Origin: Amycolatopsis suaedae
GTDB taxonomy: Bacteria; Actinomycetota; Actinomycetes; Mycobacteriales; Pseudonocardiaceae
NCBI RefSeq assembly: GCF_004214935.1
Contig: NZ_SFCC01000013.1
Location: 124,001-188,000, forward strand
Reading direction: 5' to 3'
DNA: 64,000 nt
This document shows positions 1 through 17,619 of the stretch, one piece after another. Under the pieces are notes generated by a model. The model searched no databases. It was not told the origin of the DNA and saw only the letters and a program-made list of their open reading frames with translations. The position numbers and the translations under genes were made by a program. Numbering within the stretch: the stretch's first letter is position 1; the number at the start of each line of letters is the position of its first letter.

Positions 1-1
1 G

Positions 2-529
2 CGGCCGAGGGTGGCGCTGACCATGGGCCTGTCGGCCACCGGCTACTTCTCCGGCTACACGGTCAACGTGCGCGACATCCTCGACGCACTGTCCGATCTG
101 GACGTCGAGGTGGTCGCCACCGTCGCCGAGGAGGAACAGTCCGCGCTGGACCCGTTGCCGGACAACGCCAGGGTGGTGTCGTTCGTGCCGCTGCACGTGC
201 TCGCCCCGACCTGCTCGGTGGCCATCACCCACGCCGGGTTCGGCACCCTCACCTCGTTCGCGCCGCACGGGGTGCCGCAGCTGACCCTGCCGTACCACTT
301 CGACGAGCCGATGCTCGGTCGCAAACTCGCCGAGCAGGGCGCGGGCCTGTACCTCGACCCCACCGAGGCGACCGGCGAGGCGGTGCGGGAGGGCGTCGTG
401 CGGCTGCTGGAGGACCGGGAGCTGCGTGGCGGCGCCGCCCGGCTGGCCGGCGAGATCGCCGAGCTGCCCACCCCCAACGAGCTGGTGCCTCGCATCGAGG
501 AACTCACCCGCAAGCACTGTGCCCGCTAG
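2..529 (+). CDS. EryCIII/DesVII-type glycosyltransferase, C-terminal part (5' end outside window)
   Basis: The reading frame is already open at base 2, so this is the last ~175 residues of a longer enzyme. It begins at the RPRVALT segment that opens the nucleotide-sugar-binding half in the complete neighbours. It keeps the donor-binding loop THAGFGT and the terminal PNELV..IEELTRK signature shared by all copies here. The family (GT1, activator-dependent macrolide-type transferases) attaches TDP-deoxysugars to aglycones or growing sugar chains. It is first of seven tandem paralogues; the next gene starts 17 bp after its TAG stop. The partner substrate cannot be read from the sequence. Confidence 0.9.
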   Translation, partial: RPRVALTMGLSATGYFSGYTVNVRDILDALSDLDVEVVATVAEEEQSALDPLPDNARVVSFVPLHVLAPTCSVAITHAGFGTLTSFAPHGVPQLTLPYHFDEPMLGRKLAEQGAGLYLDPTEATGEAVREGVVRLLEDRELRGGAARLAGEIAELPTPNELVPRIEELTRKHCAR

Positions 530-546
530 CCACCCGAGGAACTCTG

Positions 547-1815
547 ATGCGCGTTCTGTTCACGGTCAACCCGGAGAAGAGCACCTTCCTGTACCTGGTG
601 CCGATGATGTGGGCGCTGCGCACGGCCGGGCACGAGGTCCGGGTGGCCAGCCAGCCCGGGTTCGCACCGACCATCACCCAGGCCGGTCTCACCGCGGTCG
701 GCGTCGGCCGTGACGTGGACAAGTGGAAGGAGGCGAGGGAGAACCCGGAGCTGCTGGAAGCCTCCCGCGCCGGCCTGCCCTCGCCGTGGAACGCGCTCGA
801 CGACCCCGGCGGCACCACGTGGGAGCAGACGCTGGCCGCCCACGTCGCCGCTGTGGAGACCATCCACCACCCGGACAACGAGCCGATGCTGGCCGACCTG
901 GTCGGCTACGCCCGGTCCTGGGAACCGGACCTCGTCGTGTGGGAACCGTTCTGCTACGCGGGTGCCGTCGCCGCGAAGGCGTGCGGCGCCGCTCACGCCC
1001 GCATGCTGTTCGGTGTCGACGTGTTCGGCCTGACCCGCGAGTTCTTCCTGCGCCGCCGCGGCGAGCAGCCACCGTCGCGGCGCGCCGACCCGATGGCGGA
1101 CTGGCTCGGCGGCTACGGGGAGACCTACGGCTTCTCCTTCAGCGAAGACATGGTCGTCGGTCAGTTCACGATCGACCAGTTCCCCGCCAGCCTGCAGACC
1201 GAGGCGGACCTGCACTACGTCCGCACGCAGTACATCGCCTACGGCGGGCCCGCCGTGGTCCCCCGCTGGCTGTGGGAGCCGACGCGGCGTCCCCGGGTCG
1301 GGCTCACCCTCGGTCTGACCGCGACCGAGGTGTTCAGCGGCTACAACATCCCGCTGTCCGACATCCTCGGCGCACTGTCCGAACTGGACATCGAGGTGGT
1401 CGCCACCGTCGCCGAGTCCGAGCAGGCCGGGCTCGGCGCCGTGCCGGCCAACGTCCGGCTGGTCTCCTACGTGCCGTGGCATGCGCTGGCACCGACCTGC
1501 TCGGCGGTGATCCACCACGCCGGGGCCGCGACCATGGGGACGACGATGCGGCATCCGGTGCCGCAGCTTGCCCTGCACTACCACTTCGACCAGCCGATAC
1601 TCGGCCGCGCGCTCGCCGAGCACGGCGCGGGCCTGGAGATCCACACGACCAGAGCGACCGGCACGGGCATCCGCGACGCGGTCGAACGCCTGCTGTCCGA
1701 ACCGCGGTTCGCCGAGCGGGCCCGCGACCTGCGCGACGAGGTCCTCGCCGCCCCCTCGCCCAACGAGCTCGTCGGCCAGCTCGAAGAACTCACCACCAAG
1801 TACCGCGGCCGCTGA
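547..1815 (+). CDS. EryCIII/DesVII-type glycosyltransferase 2 (complete)
   Basis: 422 residues, the normal size for GT1 antibiotic glycosyltransferases. The N-terminus MRVLFTVNPEK followed by LVPMMWALRTAGHEVRVASQPGF is the acceptor-side Rossmann start typical of the EryCIII/DesVII group. The C-terminal half carries HHAGAAT, the donor diphosphate-binding loop, and ends with PNELVGQLEELTTK. ATG is preceded by CGAGGA at 535-540. Expected role: transfer of a TDP-deoxysugar in the cytoplasm. No DesVIII-like P450-type helper lies in the window, so either it is encoded elsewhere or these enzymes do not need it. Donor and acceptor are not predictable. Confidence 0.92.
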   Translation: MRVLFTVNPEKSTFLYLVPMMWALRTAGHEVRVASQPGFAPTITQAGLTAVGVGRDVDKWKEARENPELLEASRAGLPSPWNALDDPGGTTWEQTLAAHVAAVETIHHPDNEPMLADLVGYARSWEPDLVVWEPFCYAGAVAAKACGAAHARMLFGVDVFGLTREFFLRRRGEQPPSRRADPMADWLGGYGETYGFSFSEDMVVGQFTIDQFPASLQTEADLHYVRTQYIAYGGPAVVPRWLWEPTRRPRVGLTLGLTATEVFSGYNIPLSDILGALSELDIEVVATVAESEQAGLGAVPANVRLVSYVPWHALAPTCSAVIHHAGAATMGTTMRHPVPQLALHYHFDQPILGRALAEHGAGLEIHTTRATGTGIRDAVERLLSEPRFAERARDLRDEVLAAPSPNELVGQLEELTTKYRGR

Positions 1816-1834
1816 CCGGCCCAGGAGGAACGAC

Positions 1835-3169
1835 ATGCGCATCCTGTTCACCGCGAACCCGGAACCCACCGCGTTCGTCTCGATGGTTCCGCTGGCCTGG
1901 GCGCTGCGCACGGCCGGGCACGAGGTGCGGTTCGCCAGCCAGCCCGGCTTCGCCGGCCGGATCACCCAGGCCGGGCTCACCGCCGTCGGGGTCGGCCGGG
2001 ACGTCGACATGTACCGCCGGATCCAGGCGGTGATGAGCGCGCTGGAGCACAACGAGAAACTGCGCGAGGCCTACGGCGACCTGTCCGACGAAGAGGCACT
2101 CGCACTGCTGGACCTCAAGCCCGGCCTGCCCGCGCCGTTCGACGTCGTCGAGTACCCGGAGCGGGCCACCTGGGACCACATGCTGGGTTCCTACGCGGGC
2201 ACGGTCGAGGGTGACCACAAGCCGGAGAACTTCCCCGTCATCGCCGGGCTGGTCGAGTTCGCCCGCGCCTGGGAGCCGGACCTGGTCGTCTGGGAGCCGT
2301 CGAGCTACGCCGGGGCCATCGCGGCCAAGGCCTGCGGAGCCGCGCACGCCCGCCTGCTCGGACGGCTGGACCTGCTGGGGGTCACCCGCGGTCACTTCAC
2401 CCGGCTGCTCGCCGAGCAGCCCGCCGACCAGGCCTACGACCCGTTCGCGGCCTGGGTGGACGGCTACTGCCGCAAGTACGGCTTCGAGTTCTCCGAGGAC
2501 ATGGTGACCGGCCACTTCACGGTCGACCAGCTCCCCGGTTCGCTGACCATGCACGACCCCGGGCTGCACTACGTGCCGATGCGGTTCGTGCCCTACGGCG
2601 GTGCCGCGACCGTCGAGAAGTGGCTGACCCGGCCCGCCGAGCGGCCCCGGGTCGCCCTCACCCTGGGCACCACCGCGGCCGAGCGGTTCGAGGGCTACAC
2701 GGTCGACGTCGGTGACATCCTCACCGCGCTGGGCGACCTCGACGTCGAGGTGGTCGCCACCATCGCCGACAACGTCCGCGACACTCTGCCCGAGCTGCCC
2801 GCCAACGCCAGGGTCGTGTCGTACGCACCACTGCACGCGCTGGCACCGACCTGCTCGGTGGTGATCAACCACGCGGGCGCGGGCACGTTCCTGTCCACCG
2901 CGCTCTACGGCGTTCCGCAGCTGACGCTGCCGTGGGACCTCGACGAGCCCGAGCTGGCCCGGCGCGCGACCACCCAGGGCGGCGCACTGACCATCCACGG
3001 TGACGCGTGCACCGGCACCGGCGTGCGCGAGAACGTGCTGCGGCTGCTGGACGAACCGCGGTTCGCCGAACGCGCCGGGGTGCTGCGCGACGAGATGCTC
3101 GCCATGCCGGCGCCGAACGACGTGGTGGGCACGCTCGAGGAGCTGACCACCAAGTTCCGGATCAGATGA
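1835..3169 (+). CDS. EryCIII/DesVII-type glycosyltransferase 3 (complete)
   Basis: 444 residues. ATG at 1835 follows AGGAGGA at 1823-1829 and gives the family N-terminus MRILFTANPEPTAFVSMVPL; an upstream extension of the frame is not needed. It is about 20 residues longer than its neighbours because of an insertion after GVGRDVDMYR (a segment with SALEHNEKLREAYGDLSDEE), in the acceptor-facing N-terminal domain. The donor loop is NHAGAGT and the end is PNDVVGTLEELTTKFR. The insertion suggests a different acceptor from its paralogues (inference). Confidence 0.92.
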   Translation: MRILFTANPEPTAFVSMVPLAWALRTAGHEVRFASQPGFAGRITQAGLTAVGVGRDVDMYRRIQAVMSALEHNEKLREAYGDLSDEEALALLDLKPGLPAPFDVVEYPERATWDHMLGSYAGTVEGDHKPENFPVIAGLVEFARAWEPDLVVWEPSSYAGAIAAKACGAAHARLLGRLDLLGVTRGHFTRLLAEQPADQAYDPFAAWVDGYCRKYGFEFSEDMVTGHFTVDQLPGSLTMHDPGLHYVPMRFVPYGGAATVEKWLTRPAERPRVALTLGTTAAERFEGYTVDVGDILTALGDLDVEVVATIADNVRDTLPELPANARVVSYAPLHALAPTCSVVINHAGAGTFLSTALYGVPQLTLPWDLDEPELARRATTQGGALTIHGDACTGTGVRENVLRLLDEPRFAERAGVLRDEMLAMPAPNDVVGTLEELTTKFRIR

Positions 3170-3197
3170 CCACCACCGACAGACCCCGGAGGCCCCC

Positions 3198-4481
3198 ATG
3201 CGTGTCTTGTTCGCCGTCAACCCCGCCACGAGCATCTTCAACTCGATGGTGCCCCTGGCGTGGGCGTTGCGCACCGCCGGCCACGACGTGCGGGTCGCCA
3301 GCCAGCACTACTTCGGCGAGGTGATCACCGCGGCGGGCCTGACGGCCGTTCCGGTCGGCCGCAACTCCGACTTCCTGCGCGCGATGACTGCCAAGGGCAT
3401 CTCCGGCGAGGTCATGGAGGAGGCCAGAGCCGGCCTGCCCGCGCCGTTCGACATCGTCGACAACCCGGACCTGACCTGGGAGGAGACCCGTGACGCGCAC
3501 GGCAGCGACATCGAGCGGTACAAGCTGGAGGGCTTCGCCATGCTCGCCGGCACCGTCGAGTTCGCCAGGGCGTGGCAGCCGGACCTGGTGGTGTGGGAGC
3601 CGTTCACCCCAGCCGGGGCCATCGCGGCCAAGGCCTGCGGTGCGGCGCACGCCCGCGTGGTGTGGAGCGTCGACGTCTTCGGGATCACCAGGGAACGCTT
3701 CCTCGGCAAGCGCAACGCCCAGCCAGTCGCCGAGCGGGAGGACCCGCTCGGCGACTGGCTGGGCGGCTACGCCCGCCGGTACGGCGGCGAGTTCACCGAG
3801 GACATGGCCGTCGGGCACTTCACCATCGACCCGGTGCCCGCCCCGCTGGGGATGCGCGCCGCGGACCCGCACTACCTGCCGATGCGCTACATCGCCTACA
3901 ACGGCCCCGCGGTCGTCCCCGGCTGGCTGCAGAAACCCGCGGCCCGGCCCCGGGTGGCCATCACGCTCGGCGTGACCGCCATCGACCACTTCGCCGGCTA
4001 CACGGTCAGCATCCAGGACATCCTCGACTCGCTGTCCGATCTGGACATCGAGGTGGTGGCCACCATCGACGAGGAGGAACAGGCCAAGCTGAAGCGGATC
4101 CCGGACAACGCGCGCCTGCTGCCCTACGTCCCGCTGAACGCGCTCGCCGCCACCTGCTCCGCCGTCGTCAACCACGCCGGCCCCGGCACGCTGCTCACCA
4201 GCGCGCTGCACGGCGTGCCGCAGCTGACCCTGCCGTTCCACTTCGACGAGCCGCTGCTGGCGGGCAAGCTGGCCGAGCAGGGCGCGGGCCTGACCATCGA
4301 CCCCACGGCGACCAGCGGGCAGAACATCCGGGAGAACCTGCTGCGCCTGCTGGAGGAACCCTCGTTCACCGAGCGCGCGGTGGCGCTGCGCGAGGACATC
4401 GCCGCCATGCCCGCCCCCAACGAGCTGGTCGGCGAGATCGAGCGGCTCACCGTCAAGTACCGCACCCGGCAACCCGTTTAG
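3198..4481 (+). CDS. EryCIII/DesVII-type glycosyltransferase 4 (complete)
   Basis: 427 residues, starting MRVLFAVNPATSIFNSMVPLAWALRTAGH. GGAGG at 3188-3192 lies five bases before the ATG. The donor loop reads NHAGPGT, and the middle segment ALGVTAIDHFAGYTVSIQDILDSLSDLDIEVVATI is shared almost word for word with the other copies. It ends PNELVGEIERLTVKYRTRQPV. It lies in the same transcription unit, 28 bp after transferase 3. It is expected to add one TDP-sugar to an oligosaccharide or aglycone; the specific sugar is unknown. Confidence 0.92.
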   Translation: MRVLFAVNPATSIFNSMVPLAWALRTAGHDVRVASQHYFGEVITAAGLTAVPVGRNSDFLRAMTAKGISGEVMEEARAGLPAPFDIVDNPDLTWEETRDAHGSDIERYKLEGFAMLAGTVEFARAWQPDLVVWEPFTPAGAIAAKACGAAHARVVWSVDVFGITRERFLGKRNAQPVAEREDPLGDWLGGYARRYGGEFTEDMAVGHFTIDPVPAPLGMRAADPHYLPMRYIAYNGPAVVPGWLQKPAARPRVAITLGVTAIDHFAGYTVSIQDILDSLSDLDIEVVATIDEEEQAKLKRIPDNARLLPYVPLNALAATCSAVVNHAGPGTLLTSALHGVPQLTLPFHFDEPLLAGKLAEQGAGLTIDPTATSGQNIRENLLRLLEEPSFTERAVALREDIAAMPAPNELVGEIERLTVKYRTRQPV

Positions 4482-4490
4482 GAAAGTCAC

Positions 4491-5765
4491 ATGCGCGTCC
4501 TGTTCACCATCATCTCCGAGAAGACCATGTTCCTCTCCATGGTCCCGCTGGCGTGGGCGATGCGTACCGCGGGCCACGAGGTGCGGGTCGCCTGCCAGCC
4601 CGCGTTCGCCGAGGTGGTCACCCAGGCCGGGCTGACCGCCGTTCCCGTGGGCAGGGACGCCACGATCTGGCGGATGGAGAGCCTCGACCCGGAACTGCTC
4701 GAGGAATCACGCGACGGCCTGCCCAGCCCGTGGAACATCGCCGCGGACCCGGCACTGGCCAGCTGGGACGAGCAGGTGCAGGGTCACATCGGCGCCGTCG
4801 ACGAGGGCCACAAGCTGGAGAACTTCCCGCTGATCGGCGGCCTGGTCGAGTTCGCCCGTGCCTGGCAACCCGACCTCGTCGTCTGGGAACCACTGAGCTA
4901 CGCGGGTTCCATCGCCGCCAAGGCGTGCGGGGCCGCGCACGCCCGACTGCTGTGGAGCATCGACGTCTTCGGGGTGACCCGTGAGCACTTCCTGCGGCTC
5001 AAGGCCCAGCAGCCCGCCGACGACCGGATCGACCCGCTGGCCGACTGGCTGGGCGGCTACGCCCGCAAGTACGGCGGCGAGTTCACCGAGGACATGACGA
5101 CCGGGCAGTTCACCATCGACCCGCTGCCCGGCTCGATCGCCATGCGGGCGGGACATCTGGACTACCTGCCGATGCGCTACGTCGCCCACAACGGCGTCGC
5201 CGTCGTGCCCGACTGGCTGCAGCGGCAGCCGCGGCGGCCCCGGATCGCGCTGACGCTGGGCACCACCGCCGTCGAGCAGTTCGCCGGATACACCGTCAGC
5301 GTGCAGGACATCCTCGACGCACTGTCCGATGTGGACGCGGAGGTGGTCGCCACGGTCGCCGAGGCCGAACAGGCCAAGCTGCGCAGCGTGCCGGACAACG
5401 CCCGGATCGTGTCCTACGTACCGCTGGACGCGCTCGCGGCCACCTGCTCGGTGGTGATCAACCACGCCGGGCCGGGAACGCTGCTCACCGCGGCGGCACA
5501 CGCCGTCCCGCAGCTCACCCTGCCCTGGGAGTTCGACGCGCCCGAGCTGGCCCGCCGGGTCGCCGAGCAGGGCGCGACGCTCAACATCCACGGCAGGCGG
5601 ATCGACGGCGGCGTGGTCCGCGAAGGCGTGCTGCGGCTGCTGTCCGAACCCGGCTACCGCGACCGCGCGGTGGCGCTGCGCGACGAGATGGCCGCGCTGC
5701 CCTCGCCCAACGAGCTGGTCGGCCGGATCGAGGAACTCACCACCAAACACCGAGCCGACGGGTGA
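4491..5765 (+). CDS. EryCIII/DesVII-type glycosyltransferase 5 (complete)
   Basis: 424 residues with start MRVLFTIISEKTMFLSMVPLAWAMRTAGH. The ribosome site AGGAAAG at 4480-4486 overlaps the stop of transferase 4, so the two are translated in close succession. Donor loop NHAGPGT, C-terminus PNELVGRIEELTTKH. It is most like transferases 4 and 6 in the SIDVFGVTREHFL and DPLADWLGGYARKYGGEF segments. Cytoplasmic TDP-deoxysugar transferase by family; the acceptor is not deducible. Confidence 0.92.
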   Translation: MRVLFTIISEKTMFLSMVPLAWAMRTAGHEVRVACQPAFAEVVTQAGLTAVPVGRDATIWRMESLDPELLEESRDGLPSPWNIAADPALASWDEQVQGHIGAVDEGHKLENFPLIGGLVEFARAWQPDLVVWEPLSYAGSIAAKACGAAHARLLWSIDVFGVTREHFLRLKAQQPADDRIDPLADWLGGYARKYGGEFTEDMTTGQFTIDPLPGSIAMRAGHLDYLPMRYVAHNGVAVVPDWLQRQPRRPRIALTLGTTAVEQFAGYTVSVQDILDALSDVDAEVVATVAEAEQAKLRSVPDNARIVSYVPLDALAATCSVVINHAGPGTLLTAAAHAVPQLTLPWEFDAPELARRVAEQGATLNIHGRRIDGGVVREGVLRLLSEPGYRDRAVALRDEMAALPSPNELVGRIEELTTKHRADG

Positions 5766-5770
5766 TGCCG

Positions 5771-7048
5771 ATGCGCGTGCTGTTCACCACCTACCCGGAG
5801 AAGACCATCTTCCAGCCGATGGTCCCGCTCGCCTGGGCACTGCGCACCGCGGGACACGACGTCCGGGTCGCCAGCCAGCCCTCGTTCGCCGCCGAGATCA
5901 CCCAGGCCGGCCTCACCGCCGTCGGCGTCGGCAGGCATCAGGCCAACAACTGGCGCAGGCTGCAGGAGATCGACCCGGACGTCACCGACAGCCGGCGAGC
6001 AGGCCTGCCACCGCCGTACGACAGCGCGGTGGCCGACGAGACCACGCTCGACCCGGAGGCCATGCGGGCGGCCTACCGGACCATGGTCGACTCCGGTCAC
6101 AAGCTGAACAACTTCCCGCTGGTGCCCGGTCTGGTGGAGTTCGCCCGGCAGTGGCAGCCGGACCTGGTCGTCTGGGAGGCCACCACCTACGCCGGCGCGC
6201 TCGCCGCCCGCGCCTGCGGTGCGGCCCACGCGCGGATGCTGTGGAGCATCGACGTCTTCGGCGTCACCCGGCAGCGGTTCCTGCGCGCCACCGGCGGGAC
6301 CGGCCCGGACCCGCTGGCCGGCTGGCTGGGCGGCTACGCCCGCAAGTACGGCTTCGAGTTCGGCGAGGACCTGGTCACCGGGCAGTTCACCGTCGACCAG
6401 CTCCCCGGGTCGCTGAGCATGCGGGCCGACGGCCCGCACTACCTGCCGGTGCGGTACGTGCCCTACGGCGGCGCCGCGACGGTGCCGTCCTGGCTGCGCG
6501 AACGGCCGGCCCGGCCGCGGATCGGGCTCACGCTGGGCACGTCCGCCGTCGAGCAGTACACCGGGTACTCGGCCAGTGTCGGGGAGATTCTCCACGCACT
6601 GTCCGATCTGGACGTCGAGGTGGTCGCCACCGTCGCCGGGTCCGTGCAGGCGAAGCTGGGCACCGTCCCGGGCAACGCCCGGATCGTGTCCTACGTGCCA
6701 CTGCACGCGCTGGCACCGACCTGTTCGGCCGTCATCAACCACGCCGGACCGGGAACGCTGCTCACCTCGGCGCTGGCCGGGGTGCCACAGCTCGCCCTGC
6801 CGAGGGACTTCGACGAGCCCGAGCTGGCCCGCCGGGCCGCCGCGCAGGGCGCTGTGGTGTCGCTGCACGACGGTCCGGTCACCGGCGCGCACATCCGCGA
6901 GCAGGTCGTGCGGCTGCTGGACGAGGCCACCTTCGGCGAGCGCGCCGCCGCGCTGCGCGAGGAGATCCTGGACCTGCCCGCCCCTGGCCGGCTGGTCGGG
7001 CAACTCGAGGAGCTGACCGTGAAGTTCCGGACCGGGGTGACCCGGTGA
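5771..7048 (+). CDS. EryCIII/DesVII-type glycosyltransferase 6 (complete)
   Basis: 425 residues from ATG 5771, which gives the family start MRVLFTTYPEK. An in-frame ATG at 5765 overlaps the previous stop (TGATG) and would add two residues; it may be the coupled start. The donor loop is NHAGPGT. The terminal segment reads PAPGRLVGQLEELTVKFRTGVTR, where the otherwise conserved PNELV is replaced by PGRLV. A stretch around 6594-6640 is almost base-identical to 84-130 in transferase 1, which points to recombination between paralogues. Confidence 0.92.
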   Translation: MRVLFTTYPEKTIFQPMVPLAWALRTAGHDVRVASQPSFAAEITQAGLTAVGVGRHQANNWRRLQEIDPDVTDSRRAGLPPPYDSAVADETTLDPEAMRAAYRTMVDSGHKLNNFPLVPGLVEFARQWQPDLVVWEATTYAGALAARACGAAHARMLWSIDVFGVTRQRFLRATGGTGPDPLAGWLGGYARKYGFEFGEDLVTGQFTVDQLPGSLSMRADGPHYLPVRYVPYGGAATVPSWLRERPARPRIGLTLGTSAVEQYTGYSASVGEILHALSDLDVEVVATVAGSVQAKLGTVPGNARIVSYVPLHALAPTCSAVINHAGPGTLLTSALAGVPQLALPRDFDEPELARRAAAQGAVVSLHDGPVTGAHIREQVVRLLDEATFGERAAALREEILDLPAPGRLVGQLEELTVKFRTGVTR

Positions 7049-8298
7049 AGGTCCTGTTCTGCGCACTGCCGCAGAAGACGCACGTGCTGGGGATGGTGCC
7101 GCTGGCGTGGGCGCTGCGTACCGCCGGGCACGAGGTGCGGTTCGCGTGCCTGCCCGGCTTCGCCGCGACGATCACCCAGGCCGGGCTCACCGCCGTCCCG
7201 GTCGGCTGGGACCTCGAACCCGAGGACGACTCGCCCGAGGCGGTGGCGGCACTGCAGGAACTGCGCCGCGGGCTTCCCCTGCCCTACGACATCGCCACCA
7301 CCCTGCCCGGCCCGGTGACCTGGACCGAGGAGCGCCGGGAGGCGTTCGAGGTGATGGTCACCTACGCCTTCGGCGAGGACAACGCCCCGATGCTGCCCGC
7401 ACTGGTCGACCTGGCCCGCGCGTGGCAGCCGGACCTCGTCGTCTGGGAACCGTTCACCTACGCCGGCCCGATCGCCGCGGCCGCCTGCGGCGCCGCGCAC
7501 GCCCGGCTGCTGTTCAGCGTCGACTTCCTCGGCGTGCCGCACGACTGGATCGTCCGCAACGTCGCCGGCGATCCGCTGACGGCGTGGCTCACGTCGACCG
7601 CGTGCGAGCACGGTGTCGAGTTCACCCCCGACCTGCTGGCCGGCCAGTTCACCATCGACCAGTCCCCCGCGTCCCTGCGGATCACCGCGCCGGACCACGA
7701 GTACCTGTCCATGCGGTACAGCCCCTACGGCGGCGCGGCGACGGTCCCGCCGTGGCTGCAGCGGCCCGCCGAACGGCCCCGGGTGGCGCTGACCCTGGGG
7801 ACCTCGGCGACCGAGGATCTGCCCGGCTACCGGGTCAACGTCGCGGGTATCCTCGACGCACTGTCCGATGTGGACGTGGAGGTGGTCGCCACCCTCGCCG
7901 AGCCCGAGCAGGCGAAGCTGGGCACCGTCCCGGACAACGCCCGGATCGTGTCCTACGTGCCGCTGGACGCACTGGCGGCCACCTGCTCGGCGGCCATCAA
8001 CCACGGCGGCTTCGGGACCCTGAGCACGTTCATCCGGCACGCGGTCCCCCAGCTGACCCTGCCGCACGACTTCGAGGGACCGCTGATCTGCCGCAAGCTC
8101 GCCGAGCAGGGCGCGGGGCTCACCGTGCACGCCGACGAGGCGTCCGGCGAGCACGTCCGCGCCGGCCTGCTGCGGCTGCTGACCGAACCGGCTTTCGCCG
8201 AGCGGGCGGCCGCACTGCGGGACGAGGTCACCGCACTGCCCACCCCCAACGAGCTCGTCGGCCGGATCGAAGAGCTCACCACCAAGTACCGCACCTAG
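7045..8298 (+). CDS. EryCIII/DesVII-type glycosyltransferase 7 (complete)
   Basis: 417 residues from GTG 7045, overlapping the stop of transferase 6 by four bases (GTGA), so translation is coupled. The start KVLFCALPQKTHVLGMVPLAWALRTAGHEVRF matches the family. The donor loop is NHGGFGT, with Gly in place of the usual Ala (NHAG..GT in most copies). It lacks the TREHF segment found in most siblings, having FLGVPHDWIVRNVAGDPL instead, and is the most divergent of the set in the acceptor domain. The next gene follows after 10 bp. Confidence 0.92.
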   Translation: MKVLFCALPQKTHVLGMVPLAWALRTAGHEVRFACLPGFAATITQAGLTAVPVGWDLEPEDDSPEAVAALQELRRGLPLPYDIATTLPGPVTWTEERREAFEVMVTYAFGEDNAPMLPALVDLARAWQPDLVVWEPFTYAGPIAAAACGAAHARLLFSVDFLGVPHDWIVRNVAGDPLTAWLTSTACEHGVEFTPDLLAGQFTIDQSPASLRITAPDHEYLSMRYSPYGGAATVPPWLQRPAERPRVALTLGTSATEDLPGYRVNVAGILDALSDVDVEVVATLAEPEQAKLGTVPDNARIVSYVPLDALAATCSAAINHGGFGTLSTFIRHAVPQLTLPHDFEGPLICRKLAEQGAGLTVHADEASGEHVRAGLLRLLTEPAFAERAAALRDEVTALPTPNELVGRIEELTTKYRT

Positions 8299-10243: not shown

Positions 10244-10260
10244 CCTTGCCGCGGAGGGGT

Positions 10261-10989
10261 TCAGGCCCGCTGGGCCACCCAGAGGCCGCGCTCGAACGGC
10301 TGCAGCTGTACGTGCTCGGCGACACAGCCCACCTTGGCGAAGGTGGCCTCGTAGTGCTCCCGGGTGAACAGCGTCATGTCGCAGGTCTCGGTGAGGTACT
10401 GCATGCCGGACTCGGGATCGGTGTCCACGTAGTGCACGACCATGTGCACCCGGTCCTTACCGTCGGGGTGGTGCATGGAGTGCGACACCCGGTAGACCTT
10501 GCGCGGCCCGTCGGTGATCAGGTCGGAGGAAATGTAGCCGGGAATGAACTGCTCCGGATTGTGCCACGGTTCGATGACCAGAACACCATTCGGATTCAGG
10601 TGGCGCAGGAAACACGAGATCATCGACTCGAGTTCCGCCACGGACTGCAGCAGCGGGACCGCGAACATGCAGGTGATGACGTCGAACGTCTCTCCCAGGT
10701 CGAAATGCCGCATATCGCCCGAACGTGTTTCCAGTCCCGCGATGTGGCCCTGCGCGACGCTGAGCATGTCCTTGGACTGGTCGAACCCGACGGCCCGGTC
10801 GAAACGTTCCGCGAAGGAGCGCAGGTGCAGACCGGTCCCGCAGGCGACGTCCAGCAGTGACGAGGCGTTGGGATTCCGCGCACGGACAACCCGTTCCACT
10901 TGAGCAGACTCGGTGTCGTAGTCCTTGGCCCGGCTGCGCATGAGAAGGTCGTAGATCTCGGCGAAGCGACTCTGGAACATCTGATACAT
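10261..10989 (-). CDS. DesVI/TylM1-like TDP-amino-sugar N-methyltransferase
   Basis: 242 residues from ATG 10989, chosen because GAGTGG lies just upstream; a TTG 12 bp earlier is possible. The SAM-binding motif LLDVACGTG is at residues 45-53, followed by SGDMRHFDLGETFDVITCMF and VLVIEPWHNPEQFIPGY (about 136-152). These match the order and spacing I recall for DesVI and TylM1, which N-methylate 3-amino or 4-amino TDP-hexoses. It therefore points to an N-methylated amino sugar in the product. The amino-sugar synthesis genes themselves are not in the window. A true terminator follows it. Confidence 0.8.
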   Translation of the reverse strand: MYQMFQSRFAEIYDLLMRSRAKDYDTESAQVERVVRARNPNASSLLDVACGTGLHLRSFAERFDRAVGFDQSKDMLSVAQGHIAGLETRSGDMRHFDLGETFDVITCMFAVPLLQSVAELESMISCFLRHLNPNGVLVIEPWHNPEQFIPGYISSDLITDGPRKVYRVSHSMHHPDGKDRVHMVVHYVDTDPESGMQYLTETCDMTLFTREHYEATFAKVGCVAEHVQLQPFERGLWVAQRA

Positions 10990-11227: not shown

Positions 11228-12208
11228 CTACGACCGGCCGGCCAGCTCCGAGTACTGCCGGGCCAGCTCGTGGAACGCCTCTTTCCGTTCCCACCGGGTA
11301 GGGTCCTCCGCCGATACCTTGACCACACCGAAGGCCGCCATGTCCAGGTCGAACCGCGGATCCTGGTGGTGCGGATAGTCCTTCAGCGAGAACGTGAACA
11401 CGAAGCAGCCGTGCACCCCCTGGGAGTCGTAGACGTCGATGAGATGCGCGATGTAGGCGGCCTGAATCCGCTCGCTGCGGATGTGCCCCTTGCGGATACG
11501 CGGTGGCAGGCTGAACCAGTTGACGATCTTGAACGACCCCGGGCCCTTCTTCGGGGCACCCACGAACGACCCGCAGCCGAACTCGGTGATGACCAGCGGC
11601 TTGCCGGACGTCTCCTGCAGCTCACGCAGGTGGTCGGTGAACCGGTGCGCGTTGGACGCCGTCCGGTAGAGGTTGACGCCGACATAGTCGAACCCGGACC
11701 AGTCGACCTCCTCCCACGCTGCGGACGCGTAGGTCACCGGTCCGTTGAAGACGCTGCGGACGGTGGCCAGCGCGTCGGAGAGCAGGTCGTTGACCTTGCG
11801 GTTGATCCGCCTGCGGAACCGGTGCCGCCACTTCATCGTGAACAGGATCCGGACGGTCTCCGGGCGCCCCGGGATCATCCCGTGCAGGTGCAGCGAGAAC
11901 TCGCAGCCCAGAATGAAGAACACGCGACCGGGATAGCGGGCACGTAGCCGCTCCGCCGCGGCGGCCGTGACCGCCAGGTTGCTCACGACCTTCACGTAGG
12001 GGATGTCGCTGGGGTGAGGCTCGATCCAGACGTCGAGCCCCACCTCGAGCGCGTACTCCGCGGACTCCATCAGCCGCTGGATGTCCATCCCGATCAGGAT
12101 GACCGCGTTGCAGTGCAGTTCCTCGCGGATCACCCGTAGGTCACGCCGCACCGCGTCGAGGGGGACCTCCTCGACCATGTACGAGATCCCTCTGACGGCC
12201 AGGCTCAT
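11228..12208 (-). CDS. Clan GH-A-like (beta/alpha)8 glycosidase-fold protein
   Basis: 326 residues from ATG 12208 with GGGGAAG just upstream. There is no signal peptide, so it is cytoplasmic. Two glutamates sit where clan GH-A enzymes place acid/base and nucleophile: E103 in FILGCEFSLHLHG and E209 in KPLVITEFGCGS. Other barrel landmarks are WIEPHPSDIPY and DYVGVNLYR. No specific family is recognised. In a cluster with many glycosyltransferases it could trim or rearrange a glycosidic intermediate (inference), or act in self-resistance. Confidence 0.6.
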   Translation of the reverse strand: MSLAVRGISYMVEEVPLDAVRRDLRVIREELHCNAVILIGMDIQRLMESAEYALEVGLDVWIEPHPSDIPYVKVVSNLAVTAAAAERLRARYPGRVFFILGCEFSLHLHGMIPGRPETVRILFTMKWRHRFRRRINRKVNDLLSDALATVRSVFNGPVTYASAAWEEVDWSGFDYVGVNLYRTASNAHRFTDHLRELQETSGKPLVITEFGCGSFVGAPKKGPGSFKIVNWFSLPPRIRKGHIRSERIQAAYIAHLIDVYDSQGVHGCFVFTFSLKDYPHHQDPRFDLDMAAFGVVKVSAEDPTRWERKEAFHELARQYSELAGRS

Positions 12209-12338
12209 AGCTTCCCCGTTCCACACTGTCGACCGCGGGAGTCCGCGGAGTCGGTTGCACTCGGACCGCACGGCGCGGTGTCCGAAGGGCTACGCGGACG
12301 GCGGCGGAGCCCGGGGAGCGGGCCTCGGTGCTCCCGGA

Positions 12339-12938
12339 TCAGCGGGCCTGCAGCGCGTCCAGCGCGATGGCCTGCGCCAGCACCAGGCGGCGGTCCAGCG
12401 ACGGGTCGTCGATCCGCAGCAGGTAGTGGTCGCGCAGTCGCGTCTTCTTCTCGAAGAAGCCGACCTTCTGCTCGCCGCGCAGGAAGTCGAAGTGGTACTT
12501 GAAGATGAACGGGAAGTCGCCGACGACGGGGATGCTGTCCCAGATCCGCCGGAACAGGGCCAGCGCCATGCTCCGCTCCTGGATCGTGACCGGCTCCTGC
12601 CCCGGGTTGTCGAGCTGCCAGGTGGACCGCAGCAGGGACTTGCCGAACTTCTTGCCGAACACACCGACCGCCTGGCCGTCCGGCGTGGTCACGTCGTAGG
12701 CGCTGGCGAGGTCGATCGCCTTGCGTGCCTTGAACGAGAACAGCACGTCGCGCTTGTCCTCGTCGGTGTAGACGGTGACCTGTTCCTTGAAGGTCATCCG
12801 CTTCTGCTCGGCGAATCCGACCAGCTCGCCCGGACCACCATTGCCGTCGTCGGCGAACAGCTGGTACCGGTTGACCATCATGGTCACCTTCTGGTGCATG
12901 TGGAACTGTTGCTGCCGCTGCAGCAGGTTGATGTCCAT
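12339..12938 (-). CDS. LURP-one-related/scramblase-like protein
   Basis: 199 residues from ATG 12938, giving MDINLLQRQQQFHMHQKVTMMVNRYQLF. The beta-rich course with RMTFKEQVTVYTDE, VLFSFKARKAIDLASAYDV and a late hydrophobic stretch fits the tubby-like LURP-one/scramblase (LOR) fold common in actinomycetes. Function in bacteria is unknown. It lies 122 bp after the ammonia-lyase gene on the same strand, with its own spacing, so membership in that operon is uncertain. No catalytic motif is visible. Confidence 0.65.
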   Translation of the reverse strand: MDINLLQRQQQFHMHQKVTMMVNRYQLFADDGNGGPGELVGFAEQKRMTFKEQVTVYTDEDKRDVLFSFKARKAIDLASAYDVTTPDGQAVGVFGKKFGKSLLRSTWQLDNPGQEPVTIQERSMALALFRRIWDSIPVVGDFPFIFKYHFDFLRGEQKVGFFEKKTRLRDHYLLRIDDPSLDRRLVLAQAIALDALQAR

Positions 12939-13060
12939 CGAACCCCCGTCGAACGCACTGTGGTTGCGGCCGGAGACCGGCCGTCTTTCGCGGGGCGAGT
13001 GTAGCGTCGCGGTTACCCCGCGCACAGTCGTGGGCGCTGTTGTTCACACTCGATCCCCGC

Positions 13061-14584
13061 TCACCGATCGGCGTCCGCCAGCGCGCCGGCGGCGTGCTCG
13101 CACAGCAGGTCGCGGGCGGCTCGGACCTCCGCCGCCATCGGCCGGTCCGCGTCCAGCGGCGGGCAGATCTCGGCCAGCCGCGCCCAGACGCCCTCGCCGG
13201 TGGTGTCGTGTCCGGTCATCACGGCGAGCTGCGCGACACCCAGCGCCAGCGACCCCATCACCAGCCAGCCCAGTTCGAGTGCCTCCGACACCGAATTGGC
13301 CCCGTTGAGCGCCATCGGCACGTGATCCTGGTTCCAGCCGTTGGTGGGCAGCGTGGTCAGCGACGACGGCTGCGCCAGCATGCGGATCCGCGACACGAAC
13401 GACGTCGCGCTGATGTGGACACCCGCCAGGCCGCAGCCGCGGCCTGCCCGCGGGGTGAGCATCGGCGGCAGGTCGCCGTTGGTGGCCGGGCTGAGCAGCA
13501 GTCCCAGCTGACGCTCGGCCAGATAGGCCGCCATGTGCAGGGCCAGCCCGATCTGGTCGGACGCCAGCCCCACCGGCATGGCGTGGAAGTTGCCGCCGTG
13601 CAGCAACTCCCCCTCGAACGTGATCGGGTTGTCCTGGCAGCCGTCGACCTCGCGGCGCAGCACGTCGCCCGCGGCGTCGAGCTGGTCGAGCACCGCGCCG
13701 AGCACCTGGGGCGCGCAGCGCAGGCTGTAGGGCTCCTGCAGCGGCCGCCGTGCGTCGCGCTCCAGCCCGGCCGGGATCTCCTGGCGCATCCATTCCGCGG
13801 CGGTCAGCTGGCCGAGCTGGCCACGGGCGATGCCGTGCCCGGCGTCGTAGTGCTCGGCGTTGGCCCGCAACAAGGTCGCCAGTCTGCCGGTGAGGGCGGC
13901 TCCGGCCCGCACCAGGCGGACCGCCGACTGGTGGTTGAGCACCGACACGGCGAGGCTGGCGCCGGTGCCGTTGACGAACGCCAGCGCCTCGCGCACCGGC
14001 CATTCGAACGGCCGCGCGCCCAGCGCCGCCAGCGCGTCGGCCGCCGGGACGGTCGTCCACCGTCCGCCGGAGTCGCGCTGCCACGCCTCCCCCAGGCCGG
14101 TGAACGCCAGCGCGGCGTGGGCCAGTGGCTGGAGGTCACCGCTGGCGCTGACCGTGCCGTGCCGCGGGATGACCGGCGTGAAGCCCTTGTTCCACAGGTC
14201 GGCCACGACCTGCCAGAACTCCGGCGAGACGGCCGAGTAGCCCTTGCGCATGTTCTGGATACGCAGCCACAGGATCAGCCGCGACACCTCCGGGCTCAGC
14301 GGTTCGCCCTGGCCGGTGCCGAGGTGGGAGATCAGCGAGCTGCCCTGCTCCAGTTCGGACTCGGCGGTGTAGGTCACCAGCGGGCCGAACCCCTGGGTGA
14401 GCCCGTAGATCGGCTTGCCGTCGGCGAGCTGCGCCTCGATGGTGCGGGCGCTGGCCGCCATCCTGGCGAGGTCGTCGGCGTCGCAGGGCGCGAGCCGGGC
14501 GTCCCAGCCGGCGCTGGCCACGATCCGCCGGAGATACCCGGTGCTGGCCAGTTCCGCCGCCTGGCCTTCGACCACCTGCGTCAC
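13061..14584 (-). CDS. Tyrosine ammonia-lyase (Sam8-like)
   Basis: 507 residues from GTG 14584, which overlaps the stop of the upstream gene (GTGA). The MIO cofactor triad A-S-G lies at residues 147-149 within GTVSASGDLQPLAH. The catalytic tyrosine is Y60 in PIYGLTQGFG. The substrate-selectivity pair is H87-L88 (LISHLGTG), the His-Leu pattern associated with tyrosine rather than phenylalanine. Start, length and nearly every segment resemble the Saccharothrix espanaensis Sam8 sequence as I remember it. It deaminates L-tyrosine to p-coumarate, giving the hydroxycinnamoyl unit of a saccharomicin-type aglycone. The hydroxylase giving caffeate is not in this window. Confidence 0.93.
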   Translation of the reverse strand: MTQVVEGQAAELASTGYLRRIVASAGWDARLAPCDADDLARMAASARTIEAQLADGKPIYGLTQGFGPLVTYTAESELEQGSSLISHLGTGQGEPLSPEVSRLILWLRIQNMRKGYSAVSPEFWQVVADLWNKGFTPVIPRHGTVSASGDLQPLAHAALAFTGLGEAWQRDSGGRWTTVPAADALAALGARPFEWPVREALAFVNGTGASLAVSVLNHQSAVRLVRAGAALTGRLATLLRANAEHYDAGHGIARGQLGQLTAAEWMRQEIPAGLERDARRPLQEPYSLRCAPQVLGAVLDQLDAAGDVLRREVDGCQDNPITFEGELLHGGNFHAMPVGLASDQIGLALHMAAYLAERQLGLLLSPATNGDLPPMLTPRAGRGCGLAGVHISATSFVSRIRMLAQPSSLTTLPTNGWNQDHVPMALNGANSVSEALELGWLVMGSLALGVAQLAVMTGHDTTGEGVWARLAEICPPLDADRPMAAEVRAARDLLCEHAAGALADADR

Positions 14585-15693
14585 GTTGTCACTACCTCCA
14601 CCTGGTCGTGCCGCAGCTTTCCGAGCGCGGAACGTTCGATCCGGGACACCACATGCAGTTTCTTCGGGCGGACCCCGAGCCGCGCGAAGGCGGCGGCGAG
14701 GTCCAGGTCGGCCACGCCGGTACCGGCCGCGGGCACCAGCAGAAGCTCGACGTGCTCGCCGATCCGCTCGTCGTGGACCGGGACCAGGGCGAGGTCCTCG
14801 CAGTCCAGCACCGACCGCAGCGTGTACTCGGCCTCGTCGAGGTTGATGCGGCGGCCGTTCACCTTGACCAGCCGGCCACCGCGGCCGACCAGCAGGAACC
14901 GGCCGTCGGGCAGGTGGGTGACCCGGTCGTCGGCCTCCCACACCGGCGGCGGCGCCTCACCGGGCCGGAACGCCAGCCTCGGGCTGCGCACCACCAGCGG
15001 CACCACTTCGTCCACAGTGGACTTCTCGGCGAACTCGACGTCGGGGAACAGGTTCCACGGCGGCGGCTCGCCCTCCCGCCAGGTCCGCACGCCGACCCCG
15101 CCCGCCTCGGTGGAGCCGAGCACCTCGACGATGCGGGCCCGCCGCGGGCCTGCCTCGCGCAGGAACCGGCCGGCGGTCGCGGGCAGCATGGCGCCGCCGT
15201 AGAGCACGGTGATCCGCTCGAAGCCGCGGACCCAGTCCAGGTGCTGCAGGAGCAGCTGGAAGATCCACGGCGTCGCCATCACCACCACCCGGGACCGGCC
15301 GACCCGCGGCATCGCCCCGACGAACGCCGGGCGGTACCACACCGGGACCCCGAGGTGGGCGGGAACGAGCACGCTGGTGAGCGCGCCGAACAGGTGCGCG
15401 GGCGGGACGAACGACACCACCGCGCCGGGCACGTCGTCGGCGACGAACCCGGCGAGCATGCCCGCCTCGTCCCAGACCCGGTGTGCCAGCCTGCGCCAGG
15501 TCCGGCTCGGCCCGGTCGTGCCCGAGGTGGAGAAGTCGATCTGCTCGGGCAGCAGGTCCCGGCACAGCCGTTCGCCCTCCGAAGGGCCGAGCCGGTCCCA
15601 CCGCACGTGCCAGGACGCGTCGACGGTCTCCGGCGCGGACAACCCGCCCTCCAGCAGCCGTCGCGGCTCGCGCTCGGCGTATGCCTCGGTCAT
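14581..15693 (-). CDS. Small AMP-binding acyl-activating enzyme (acyl-CoA ligase-like)
   Basis: 370 residues, short for an acyl-CoA synthetase (about 500). The P-loop IDFSTSGTTGPSRTWRR is at residues ~52-67, followed by the VLGSTEAGG core (~190), DGRFLLVGRGGRLVKVNGRRINLDEAE hinge and a C-terminal lid ending in ALGKLRHDQV with the expected lysine. The whole N-terminal subdomain before the P-loop is reduced to ~50 residues. It overlaps rmlA upstream (ATGA) and the ammonia-lyase downstream (GTGA). It probably activates the coumaric or caffeic acid made next door; in the sam cluster a comparable ligase gene neighbours sam8, as I recall. Confidence 0.82.
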   Translation of the reverse strand: MTEAYAEREPRRLLEGGLSAPETVDASWHVRWDRLGPSEGERLCRDLLPEQIDFSTSGTTGPSRTWRRLAHRVWDEAGMLAGFVADDVPGAVVSFVPPAHLFGALTSVLVPAHLGVPVWYRPAFVGAMPRVGRSRVVVMATPWIFQLLLQHLDWVRGFERITVLYGGAMLPATAGRFLREAGPRRARIVEVLGSTEAGGVGVRTWREGEPPPWNLFPDVEFAEKSTVDEVVPLVVRSPRLAFRPGEAPPPVWEADDRVTHLPDGRFLLVGRGGRLVKVNGRRINLDEAEYTLRSVLDCEDLALVPVHDERIGEHVELLLVPAAGTGVADLDLAAAFARLGVRPKKLHVVSRIERSALGKLRHDQVEVVTT

Positions 15694-16562
15694 TCGAGCG
15701 ACTGGGCGATCTGCATCAGGTACTGGCCGTACTCGGAGTTCTTCATCTGCGCGCCGATCTTGTGGCAGGCGTCGGCGGTGATGTAGCCCATCCGCAGCGC
15801 GATCTCCTCGAGACAGGCGACCCGGATGCCCTGCCGCTTCTCGATGACCTGCACGTACTGGCTGGCCGACAACAGCGAGTCGTGGGTGCCGGCGTCCAGC
15901 CAGGTGAACCCGCGGCCCAGGCGGAACAGCCGGGCGCGGCCGTTCTTGAGGTAGTGCTTGTTGACGTCGGTGATCTCCAGCTCGCCACGGGCCGAGGGCT
16001 CCAGGCCGCGGGCGATCTCGACGGCGTCGGAGTCGTAGAAGTACAGCCCGGTGATCGCGTTGTCCGAACGCGGGCGCAGCGGCTTCTCCTCGATCGACAC
16101 CAGCGCGCCATCGCCGTCGGTCTCACCGATGCCGTACCGCTCGGGGTCGGAGACCGGGTAGCCGAACAGGGTGCAGCCGGTCAGCTGCTCACGGGCGTCA
16201 CGCAGCAGTTTCGGGAATCCGGCGCCGTGGAAGATGTTGTCACCGAGGATCAGCGCCGTCGGACCGCCGTCGATGTGGTCGGCGCCGATGATCAGTGCCT
16301 CGGCGATGCCGCGCGGCTGGTCCTGCTCCGCGTAGCTGAAGTTCAGGCCGAGCTGGGAGCCGTCGCCGAGCAGGTTTCGCAGCGAGGGCAGGCTGTCCGG
16401 GGTCGAGATGACCAGGATGTCCCGGACGCCGGCGAGCATCAGCACCGAGATCGGGTAATAGACCATCGGCTTGTCGTAGACCGACAGCAGTTGCTTGGAG
16501 GTCACCTTGGTGAGTGGATACAGCCGCGTGCCGCTACCACCGGCGAGAACGATGCCCTTCAT
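15690..16562 (-). CDS. rmlA: Glucose-1-phosphate thymidylyltransferase
   Basis: 290 residues, full length for RmlA. The nucleotide-binding motif GGSGTRLYPLT is at residues 8-18, followed by K23-Q24 and YDKPMVYYPISVLMLAG. The GDNIFHGAGF segment marks the active site. It makes dTDP-glucose from dTTP and glucose-1-phosphate, the entry to all TDP-deoxysugars used by the tandem transferases. It is first in the coupled set rmlA, ligase, ammonia-lyase, with an ATGA overlap to the second gene. No RmlB dehydratase gene is present here. Confidence 0.95.
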   Translation of the reverse strand: MKGIVLAGGSGTRLYPLTKVTSKQLLSVYDKPMVYYPISVLMLAGVRDILVISTPDSLPSLRNLLGDGSQLGLNFSYAEQDQPRGIAEALIIGADHIDGGPTALILGDNIFHGAGFPKLLRDAREQLTGCTLFGYPVSDPERYGIGETDGDGALVSIEEKPLRPRSDNAITGLYFYDSDAVEIARGLEPSARGELEITDVNKHYLKNGRARLFRLGRGFTWLDAGTHDSLLSASQYVQVIEKRQGIRVACLEEIALRMGYITADACHKIGAQMKNSEYGQYLMQIAQSLE

Positions 16563-16911
16563 GAGCTAATCCATTCTGTGAATTTCCTGGGAACGTGATG
16601 ACCCGTTCAGTTCGAGGAAATCAGCTGATTAGGGGGCTCAATTCCTATTCTCCCCAGAACCCCCGGAACGCAACATCGAGACTAGGCAGCGGCGCGCCGG
16701 GCAGTCAATGCGGCGGGGAGGCTGTCTCGCCGGCGGGACGGCCGCGGGACAGGATCTTTACCAGGTCGCGGGCGGGACCGCCAGGCCGTCCCGCGGTGGA
16801 CCCCGCCCGCCGGGCGAAGTCACACCATATCGGGCACGCTTTTGTATTGGATTTGTACGCGAAGCTGGCACACTCGTTCGTTGCCAGAGGGGACCAATCG
16901 AGGAGCGATTC
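16563..16911. other. Divergent promoter region between rmlA and the LmbU-family gene
   Basis: This 349-bp gap separates divergent genes, so it should contain both promoters. It holds an AT-richer patch (16600-16680) on the rmlA side and a CGCCGGCG octamer at 16728-16735. No gene with a convincing ribosome site starts inside it; an ATG at 16708 in frame with the regulator is judged too early. Confidence 0.5.
16728..16735. promoter_or_regulatory. CGCCGGCG palindrome, possible LmbU-type site
   Basis: CGCCGGCG is the octamer I recall being reported as a core for LmbU binding. It lies between rmlA and the LmbU-family gene. In such GC-rich DNA the octamer also occurs by chance, so this is only suggestive. 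Confidence 0.3.
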
Positions 16912-17619
16912 TTGGACGGCACGAACAATGGGGGCGAGGAGTTCGGACCCCCCGAGACGACGCACCGCCCGGCCCCGCCGCCGGGCAAGCAGCTGGAGAG
17001 CCGCGCCCAGTCCGGCGCGCTGACCAAGCGCACGAGCCTCAGCCTGCCGCCGCAGATCCCGCTCGACGAGTGGAGCCGGATCGGCCACAAGATCTTCGTC
17101 ATCTCCGAGTCGTCCACCTGGTGGCTGGGCGACTGGCTGATCTACGGGCAGTCGCACTACCCGGACCGCTACCTGCACGCGGTCGCGGAGACCTCGCTGG
17201 ACTACCAGACACTGCGCAACTACGCCTGGGTCGCGCGGCGCTATCCGGCGTCGCGGCGGCGTGCCGGGCTGAGCTTCCAGCACCACGCCGAGCTGGCCAG
17301 CCTGCCCGAGGACCAGCAGGACAAGTGGCTCGACCGGGCCGAGAAGTTCGGCTGGTCGCGCAACGAGCTGCGCAACCGGCTCAAGGCCAGCCGCAACGCG
17401 AGCCCGATCGAGGGTGCCGAGGGCGAGGCCGTGCAGAGCCTGGAGGTCAACGTCCCGGCCGACCAGAAACGGCTGTGGGCCGAGGCGGCGTCGACGACGA
17501 AGCAGGATCTGGTCAGCTGGATCATGGACATCCTCGACGACGCCGCGGCGTCCACCCCGCGGCTGACGCAGGGCGAGCACCGCGACCCCACCGCCGAGGA
17601 CCGCGCCCGCCGCAACTGA
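16912..17619 (+). CDS. LmbU/NovE-family cluster regulator
   Basis: 235 residues from a TTG at 16912, selected because AGGAG at 16901-16905 sits at ideal spacing. The core FVISESSTWWLGDWLIYGQSHYPDRY...SLDYQTLRNYAWVARRYP...LSFQHHAELASLPEDQQDKWL is the LmbU/NovE signature, with a helix-turn-helix-like SRNELRNRLKAS segment at about 155-165. Members are positive regulators inside lincomycin, novobiocin and similar clusters. Its divergent position beside rmlA suggests it controls both directions. The C-terminal ~40 residues are charged and probably disordered. Confidence 0.88.
   Translation: MDGTNNGGEEFGPPETTHRPAPPPGKQLESRAQSGALTKRTSLSLPPQIPLDEWSRIGHKIFVISESSTWWLGDWLIYGQSHYPDRYLHAVAETSLDYQTLRNYAWVARRYPASRRRAGLSFQHHAELASLPEDQQDKWLDRAEKFGWSRNELRNRLKASRNASPIEGAEGEAVQSLEVNVPADQKRLWAEAASTTKQDLVSWIMDILDDAAASTPRLTQGEHRDPTAEDRARRN

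Follow-up and report, generated by a model that had tools for sequence, protein, structure and literature searches.

A saccharomicin-related gene cluster with a large glycosyltransferase set in Amycolatopsis suaedae

A 64,000-nucleotide stretch of the Amycolatopsis suaedae genome (the window; contig NZ_SFCC01000013.1, hereafter C4, with window position 1 at C4:124001 and the window end at C4:188000) opens with a row of glycosyltransferase genes and an ammonia-lyase gene, and raises the question of whether this locus belongs to a saccharomicin-type pathway and, if so, what it makes. Saccharomicins are heptadecaglycosides with a caffeoyl-taurine aglycone. Among antibiotics they are described as having the longest natural-product sugar chain, and only two members were counted in a 2021 review (PMC8234114). 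Comparison of the sequences indicates that the window belongs to a cluster evolutionarily related to the saccharomicin (sam) cluster of Saccharothrix espanaensis, a new subtype of the saccharomicin family and not a new kind of system. The cluster is likely to direct the biosynthesis of a long deoxysugar chain on a phenylpropenoid, as a sam relative with a different aglycone and a larger glycosyltransferase set.

Kinship with the saccharomicin cluster

The source genome (7.54 Mb in 32 contigs, 99% complete) was compared with 80-kb regions holding five related clusters, from S. espanaensis DSM 44229, S. tamanrassetensis, Kibdelosporangium banguiense and two Amycolatopsis genomes near-identical to each other (G146 and G151). 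This comparison set the limits of the conserved cluster at C4:97973-141619 (43.6 kb), with window positions 1-17619 forming its right-hand 40%; an earlier reading of the window, made from its sequence (the original prediction), had placed the right-hand end at exactly this point. From the left end, the cluster comprised genes for an MppJ-type methyltransferase, a C-methyltransferase, a Gfo/Idh-type reductase, an RmlC-type epimerase and a divergent EryCIII-like protein, followed by a 2,3-dehydratase, a DegT aminotransferase, a small protein, one GT1 glycosyltransferase, two bPH_2 proteins, an aldo-keto reductase, an epimerase-family protein and then the GT1 array. Since full-length genes stand in an order matching a known cluster, chance is not an issue for the features of the window.

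The window lyase was 81% identical to Sam8 of S. espanaensis, which was shown to be a tyrosine ammonia-lyase (PMC8234114), and its ASG motif (4-methylideneimidazole-5-one, MIO) and SHL lid motif were identical to those of Sam8, in line with the high identity that had been predicted. Among 390 genomes of the family, 17 (source included) carried a lyase at least 65% identical to that of the window. Identities formed a block of 65–83% that included Sam8, then dropped to 49–50% and to ≤42% among the matches listed (E 1e-60). Grouping with histidine ammonia-lyases, which the original prediction had named as the outcome that would speak against it, was rejected on this basis, as the window lyase fell into the block with Sam8 and other lyases of the family were at 50% or ≤42%. 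The NCBIfam hutH scores were below cut-off, and the best PDB sequence matches were histidine ammonia-lyases, with no Sam8-named chain among the 39 chains listed. The enzyme is thus predicted to be a tyrosine ammonia-lyase of the Sam8 type. Between the tyrosine ammonia-lyases of the two subtypes there were 23 fixed differences, three of them at the C-terminal end.

The kinship extended to the neighboring genes. The ligase was 63% identical to Sam7, and the end of its gene overlapped the lyase start by 4 bases; RmlA was 83% identical to the sam copy and the LmbU regulator 48%. Pfam and NCBIfam matches put the lyase-coupled adenylating enzyme, RmlA and the LmbU regulator where they had been foreseen. 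To the left of the window, where further sugar genes had also been expected, the deoxysugar genes g048, g049, g050, g052, g053, g058 and g059 (the 2,3-dehydratase, aminotransferase, C-methyltransferase, RmlC-type epimerase, Gfo/Idh-type and aldo-keto reductases, and epimerase-family protein) were 65–83% identical to their sam homologues. The small protein g054 and the bPH_2 pair likewise had counterparts in the sam cluster (HE804045; PMC3469384, PMC8234114). The S. tamanrassetensis cluster also had genes in common with the source cluster. The S. espanaensis region showed the published landmarks in order, namely the HpaB-type hydroxylase (Sam5), the ligase homologue (Sam7), the lyase (Sam8), ten glycosyltransferase genes and the penicillin amidase (Sam36). 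Together with a partly kept array order (below), these identities bear out the saccharomicin-like character claimed by the original prediction.

A different role for the array, in which it decorates another scaffold or a cell-surface glycan and the lyase and ligase supply a minor acyl group, is scarcely to be expected. A PMT_2-type membrane transferase adjoins the array and a GH101 gene lies next door, and four of 19 named loci (three Streptomyces and Herbidospora galbida) had no clear glycosyltransferase array within 10 kb of the lyase, all of which would fit that role. However, no scaffold-forming enzyme beyond the lyase and ligase was recognized within the conserved 43.6 kb, and the lyase, ligase, RmlA and glycosyltransferase array co-occurred in all six clusters compared. 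Smaller arrays, although not at every locus, also stood beside the wider lyase clade in Herbidospora, Actinoplanes, Prauserella, Salinispora and Streptomyces atratus. One transferase query gave 3–12 matches at E 1e-80 in each of 12 further named records with the lyase, not all of them necessarily in the lyase cluster.

Glycosyltransferase array

The cluster held 17 GT1-type genes (15 in tandem, g055 alone and the divergent g051), compared with 10 in the sam cluster, plus one PMT_2 gene. Seven of the tandem genes overlapped the window, as had been predicted, the first cut by the window edge (1-529) and six complete (547-8298); the predicted total of at least eight glycosyltransferases was a low bound. 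The C-terminal His-x-Gly region, which we take to be the nucleotide-sugar site, was kept in all 17 GT1-type proteins. The regions of G146 and G151 had 17 GT1-type genes each (16 in tandem), that of K. banguiense 15 (14 in tandem), S. tamanrassetensis 12 and S. espanaensis 10. According to the excerpt of Strobel et al. (PMC3469384), no other cluster with as many as ten glycosyltransferase genes was known in 2012. The transferase originally predicted as GT39-type corresponded to the GT-C/PMT_2 gene, which had a single homologue (60%), near the K. banguiense cluster, across the five 80-kb regions; its membership in the pathway is uncertain.

The GT1 proteins were classified by their position in a tree of 88 sequences that included Sam11–20, with clade supports given as x/y pairs. 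Sam11–20 were assigned to the ten S. espanaensis genes by order, with donors taken from PMC8234114. The fucose clade (25 rows, 100/97) held g060, g061, g062, g064 and g069, while the saccharosamine clade (20 rows, 98/97) held g063 and g073, plus g070 and g072 as a sister group. The Sam16, Sam15 and Sam14 clades contained one gene each (g065, g066 and g067, respectively) and the Sam13 group two (g068 and g071). Array members thus fell in clades holding Sam13–20, and none grouped with Sam11 or Sam12; g074 belonged to a clade with no Sam member, and g055 and g051 formed long branches of no class. The class order of g063–g068 was that of Sam18–13, a six-gene run of saccharosamine, fucose, rhamnose, digitoxose, epivancosamine and Sam13 types, which arose in 26 of 200,000 shuffles of the source array and 20 of 200,000 of the G146 array.

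Five fucose-clade and four saccharosamine-clade enzymes were present in each of the four subtype clusters, which represent three lineages given the near-identity of G146 and G151. Saccharomicin itself has five fucose and four saccharosamine residues, and two enzymes each do the work (PMC8234114). As the enzyme counts equal these sugar numbers, they suggest nearly one enzyme per linkage here, where the sam system reuses its enzymes. It is quite possible, and compatible with a sam relative bearing a larger transferase set, that the extra transferases have no one-to-one relation to linkages, either because iteration persists and takes the chain beyond 17 sugars or because several copies are redundant. 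Sam enzymes do act iteratively (PMC8234114), and some transferases form closely related pairs (g060/g061, 73% identical, and Kban_25/26 of K. banguiense, for example), which would agree with this; the recurrence of the same five and four across three lineages, and their equality with the saccharomicin sugar numbers, argue against it.

Aglycone, tailoring genes and proposed pathway

Ten sam-region proteins with no counterpart in this cluster were compared by tblastn with C4:44001-188000, among them the cysteate synthase (TIGR03844 above cut-off), the adenylylsulfate (APS) kinase and the amidase. Only Sesp_30, a methyltransferase that is Sam9 by order, was matched, partially (36%) and outside the cluster at C4:151 kb. 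There was therefore no match in this interval to Sam5, cysteate synthase, APS kinase or the penicillin amidase Sam36, all of which set the sam cluster apart. The best cysteate synthase match of the whole genome was only 24% (E 8e-7); the decarboxylase Sam29 was not searched for. The Sam5-like hydroxylase that the original prediction had expected to the left of the window was thus not borne out, nor were taurine genes, whose absence there it had counted among the outcomes speaking against it. In the sam cluster, the pyridoxal phosphate enzyme at L066:2201-3493 scored above the NCBIfam cut-off for cysteate synthase, which suggests from sequence that the taurine of saccharomicin derives from cysteate rather than from the cysteine sulfinate of a 2012 proposal (PMC3469384).

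In contrast, the MppJ-type C-methyltransferase, the AcvX-like glycosidase, the N,N-dimethyltransferase and the divergent EryCIII-like protein occurred in the Amycolatopsis cluster and not in sam. The MppJ-type protein matched PDB 4kib (E 7e-122, 410 bits, residues 6–324 of 325), MppJ, the phenylpyruvate C-methyltransferase of mannopeptimycin biosynthesis. The cluster of MppJ itself is a nonribosomal peptide synthetase one. The motifs GHDFW and (G/A)HD.MGV, of which the His-Asp/His residues presumably bind metal, were kept in the four homologues compared, and the Amycolatopsis protein resembles MppJ in both its full length and these motifs. In phenylpyruvate, MppJ methylates the benzylic carbon (PMC6117699). 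All four subtype clusters contained the gene, the other three copies being 67–68% identical to that of the source. An MppJ-like gene (E 1e-60) was found in 33 of the 390 genomes, in 10 of 17 where a Sam8-type lyase was present and in 23 of 373 where it was not (Fisher p 6e-8, with no correction for relatedness). In eight of the ten, a copy shared a contig with the lyase at a distance of 16.7–49.3 kb; the remaining two had theirs 0.9 and 1.8 Mb from it. Neither S. espanaensis nor S. tamanrassetensis, both with Sam5, was among the 33. We infer that a beta-methylated phenylpyruvate may enter the product: it could pass through the lyase to give a beta-methyl-p-coumaroyl core, or be joined to the core in the form of a beta-methyl amino acid. 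Because no Sam5 hydroxylase was found in C4:44001-188000 and no close cysteate synthase in the genome, and an MppJ-type enzyme is present, the aglycone is probably not caffeoyl-taurine. The original prediction was largely correct: of the related hydroxycinnamoyl oligosaccharide with an N-methylated amino sugar that it envisaged, the sam relationship and the N,N-dimethyltransferase stood, while the caffeoyl-taurine route was not supported.

Several points weigh against a sam relative with a different aglycone and a larger transferase set. The sole HpaB-type gene of the genome (68% to Sam5, C11:381281) and a Sam36 homologue (61%, C7:105214) lie on other contigs, and G146 and G151 have two HpaB genes each (63–66%), hundreds of kb or more from their clusters, which would allow a hydroxylase to act in trans. 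No MppJ-like gene at E 1e-60 was found in seven of the 17 genomes carrying a Sam8-type lyase, and Pfam scans recognized no transporter inside the cluster. The K. banguiense array, with no Sam16-type and two Sam15-type genes, matched the sam order for three genes only (22,027 of 200,000 shuffles), and the class order is therefore not universal. Donor classes follow from tree position, under which g055, g051 and g074 have no class and g070 and g072 are sisters of the saccharosamine transferases. Moreover, the Sam13 donor was set as epivancosamine by subtraction (four epivancosamines minus two for Sam12 and one for Sam14), as the excerpt of PMC8234114 names none.

The off-cluster genes would also allow saccharomicin itself or a caffeoyl-taurine congener to be made, with the hydroxylase and amide-forming enzyme acting from other loci and taurine coming from elsewhere; a 50% Sam36 homologue in K. 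banguiense and the sugar genes in common point the same way. We consider this unlikely. None of the hydroxylase or amidase genes lies inside the clusters, those of K. banguiense, G146 and G151 resembling the source cluster in having no HpaB beside them. The K. banguiense genome had no HpaB match, and G146 and G151 no close Sam36 match (best E 2e-6). S. espanaensis has a second HpaB (65%) away from its sam cluster, and such genes are therefore common. Finally, no close cysteate synthase was found in the four subtype genomes (28% at best), and the MppJ-type and AcvX-like genes are present instead.

Among the tailoring genes, that of the DesVI-like N-methyltransferase of the original prediction encoded a protein that matched CalS10 and, in the PDB, several chains of dTDP-3-amino-sugar N,N-dimethyltransferases (phmmer E ~1e-53), including 3pfg and 3bxo, which we take to be TylM1 and DesVI, and it is by similarity an amino-sugar N,N-dimethyltransferase. 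None of the other five 80-kb cluster regions contained a match to it. The glycosidase was closest to AcvX (PDB 7y4h; phmmer E 6e-67 over residues 38–340), which was also the top Foldseek match (E 4e-21, 37% identity) of a weak model built from six sequences (mean pLDDT, predicted local distance difference test, 58). Members of clan GH-A have a TIM barrel in which strands 4 and 7 each end in a Glu. The motif positions and the candidate catalytic Glu124 and Glu230, invariant in six homologues, would be compatible with this rule, although the structural model is poor. AcvX deglycosylates lobophorins according to its PDB title, whereas the Amycolatopsis homologue, known from its sequence, sits with a Sam8-type lyase; the name AcvX was absent among the literature matches listed for AcvX or lobophorin. 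The family occurred in 182 of the 390 genomes (E 1e-15), and in K. banguiense, G146 and G151, which had the closest copies (59–61%), the gene adjoined the lyase. The protein at 12339-13025, tried as an aglycone enzyme, was dropped, as it had homologues in 121 of the 390 genomes and is probably not pathway-specific.

The bPH_2 pair had homologues in all five other clusters. The YdbST proteins of Bacillus subtilis presumably carry this domain as well. They protect against amylocyclicin (PMC8144471), and saccharomicins damage bacterial membranes (PMC8234114). In view of this damage and by analogy, a guess would be that the pair protects the producer.

In the proposed pathway, tyrosine would be deaminated to p-coumarate or, given the MppJ-type enzyme in the cluster, to a beta-methylated analogue. 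The Sam7-like ligase would activate the acid, and the phenol would then be glycosylated. Transferases of the fucose, saccharosamine, rhamnose, digitoxose and epivancosamine types would grow the chain roughly in the sam order, with less iteration on account of five fucose-type and four saccharosamine-type enzymes, compared with two each in sam. One amino sugar would be N,N-dimethylated. The AcvX-like glycosidase might trim the chain and the bPH_2 pair shield the membrane of the producer, both guesses from homologues. The product is probably a new relative of saccharomicin. A more specific proposal, that the subtype builds a chain of saccharomicin length with a dedicated transferase for nearly every linkage (17 GT1), in partly collinear gene order, on a beta-methylated hydroxycinnamoyl or beta-methyl-tyrosine-derived aglycone, is doubtful at present. 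If true, the subtype would work as a near-collinear assembly line on the principle of "one enzyme, one sugar" and would be the counterpart to sam with its iterative enzymes.

Relatives, features and flanking genes

The clusters of K. banguiense, G146 and G151 were of the same subtype as the Amycolatopsis cluster, sharing the MppJ-type gene, the AcvX-like gene and a g051 homologue (61–64%). In the regions read, they had no homologue of the N,N-dimethyltransferase, and none of their glycosyltransferases grouped with g055. Among the literature titles listed, none dealt with a saccharomicin-like cluster from either Amycolatopsis or Kibdelosporangium. The smaller arrays beside the wider lyase clade suggest that the class of compounds extends beyond the two saccharomicins known. 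With its greater number of transferases, the second subtype, seen in four genomes from three lineages, offers a natural comparison of iterative and dedicated division of work among glycosyltransferases; it also supplies deoxysugar transferases whose donors are predicted, and suggests a new aglycone. K. banguiense additionally had, ~0.8 Mb from the first, another cluster with a Sam8-type lyase (72%) and separate glycosyltransferase genes.

Table 1. Features of the cluster in and beside the window (window positions unless a contig is given).
Feature	Position	Strand	Basis
GT1 g068 (3' part), Sam13-type	1..529 (full gene C4:123255-124529)	+	tree with Sam11–20
GT1 g069, fucose-transferase clade (Sam17/Sam20)	547..1815	+	tree
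GT1 g070, sister group of saccharosamine transferases (Sam18/19)	1835..3169	+	tree
GT1 g071, Sam13-type	3198..4481	+	tree
GT1 g072, sister group of saccharosamine transferases	4491..5765	+	tree; NCBIfam TIGR04516 (activator-dependent family glycosyltransferase) above cut-off
GT1 g073, saccharosamine-transferase clade (with Sam18)	5765..7048	+	tree
GT1 g074, clade with no Sam member, common to G146 and G151	7045..8298	+	tree
PMT_2 (GT-C type) membrane glycosyltransferase	8309..9886	+	Pfam PF13231
Predicted amino-sugar N,N-dimethyltransferase, CalS10 type	10261..10989	-	phmmer against PDB chains
AcvX-like natural-product glycosidase, probably clan GH-A	11228..12271	-	phmmer, Foldseek
Conserved protein with no Pfam or NCBIfam match	12339..13025	-	homologues across family genomes
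Predicted Sam8-type tyrosine ammonia-lyase	13061..14584	-	PF00221; identity to S. espanaensis enzyme
Sam7-type short acyl-CoA ligase (adenylating enzyme)	14581..15693	-	PF00501; identity to Sam7
RmlA glucose-1-phosphate thymidylyltransferase	15690..16562	-	TIGR01207 above cut-off
LmbU-family transcriptional regulator, right-hand end of conserved cluster	16912..17619	+	NF038070 above cut-off
bPH_2 protein pair, left of window	C4:108410-110562		Pfam scan

The GH101 gene that directly adjoins the cluster (17776-20709, minus strand) encodes an endo-alpha-N-acetylgalactosaminidase with five GH101-associated Pfam domains. On the other side, at C4:91918-94158, a YcaO protein (ThiF match below the Pfam cut-off) stood beside BTAD/Trans_reg_C and HxlR regulators, with a protein of 1949 amino acids further left; this neighborhood is probably a separate cluster, perhaps of the ribosomally synthesized and post-translationally modified peptide (RiPP) type. 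Elsewhere in the window, a reading frame of 1219 amino acids (34673-38332) carried a LuxC acyl-CoA reductase domain and, after it, a borderline match to AMP-binding. Another of 622 amino acids (58793-60661), with no Pfam match, had a third-position GC of 0.63, and the stretch around it was 64% GC compared with 67–74% across the rest of the window, possibly indicating acquired DNA.

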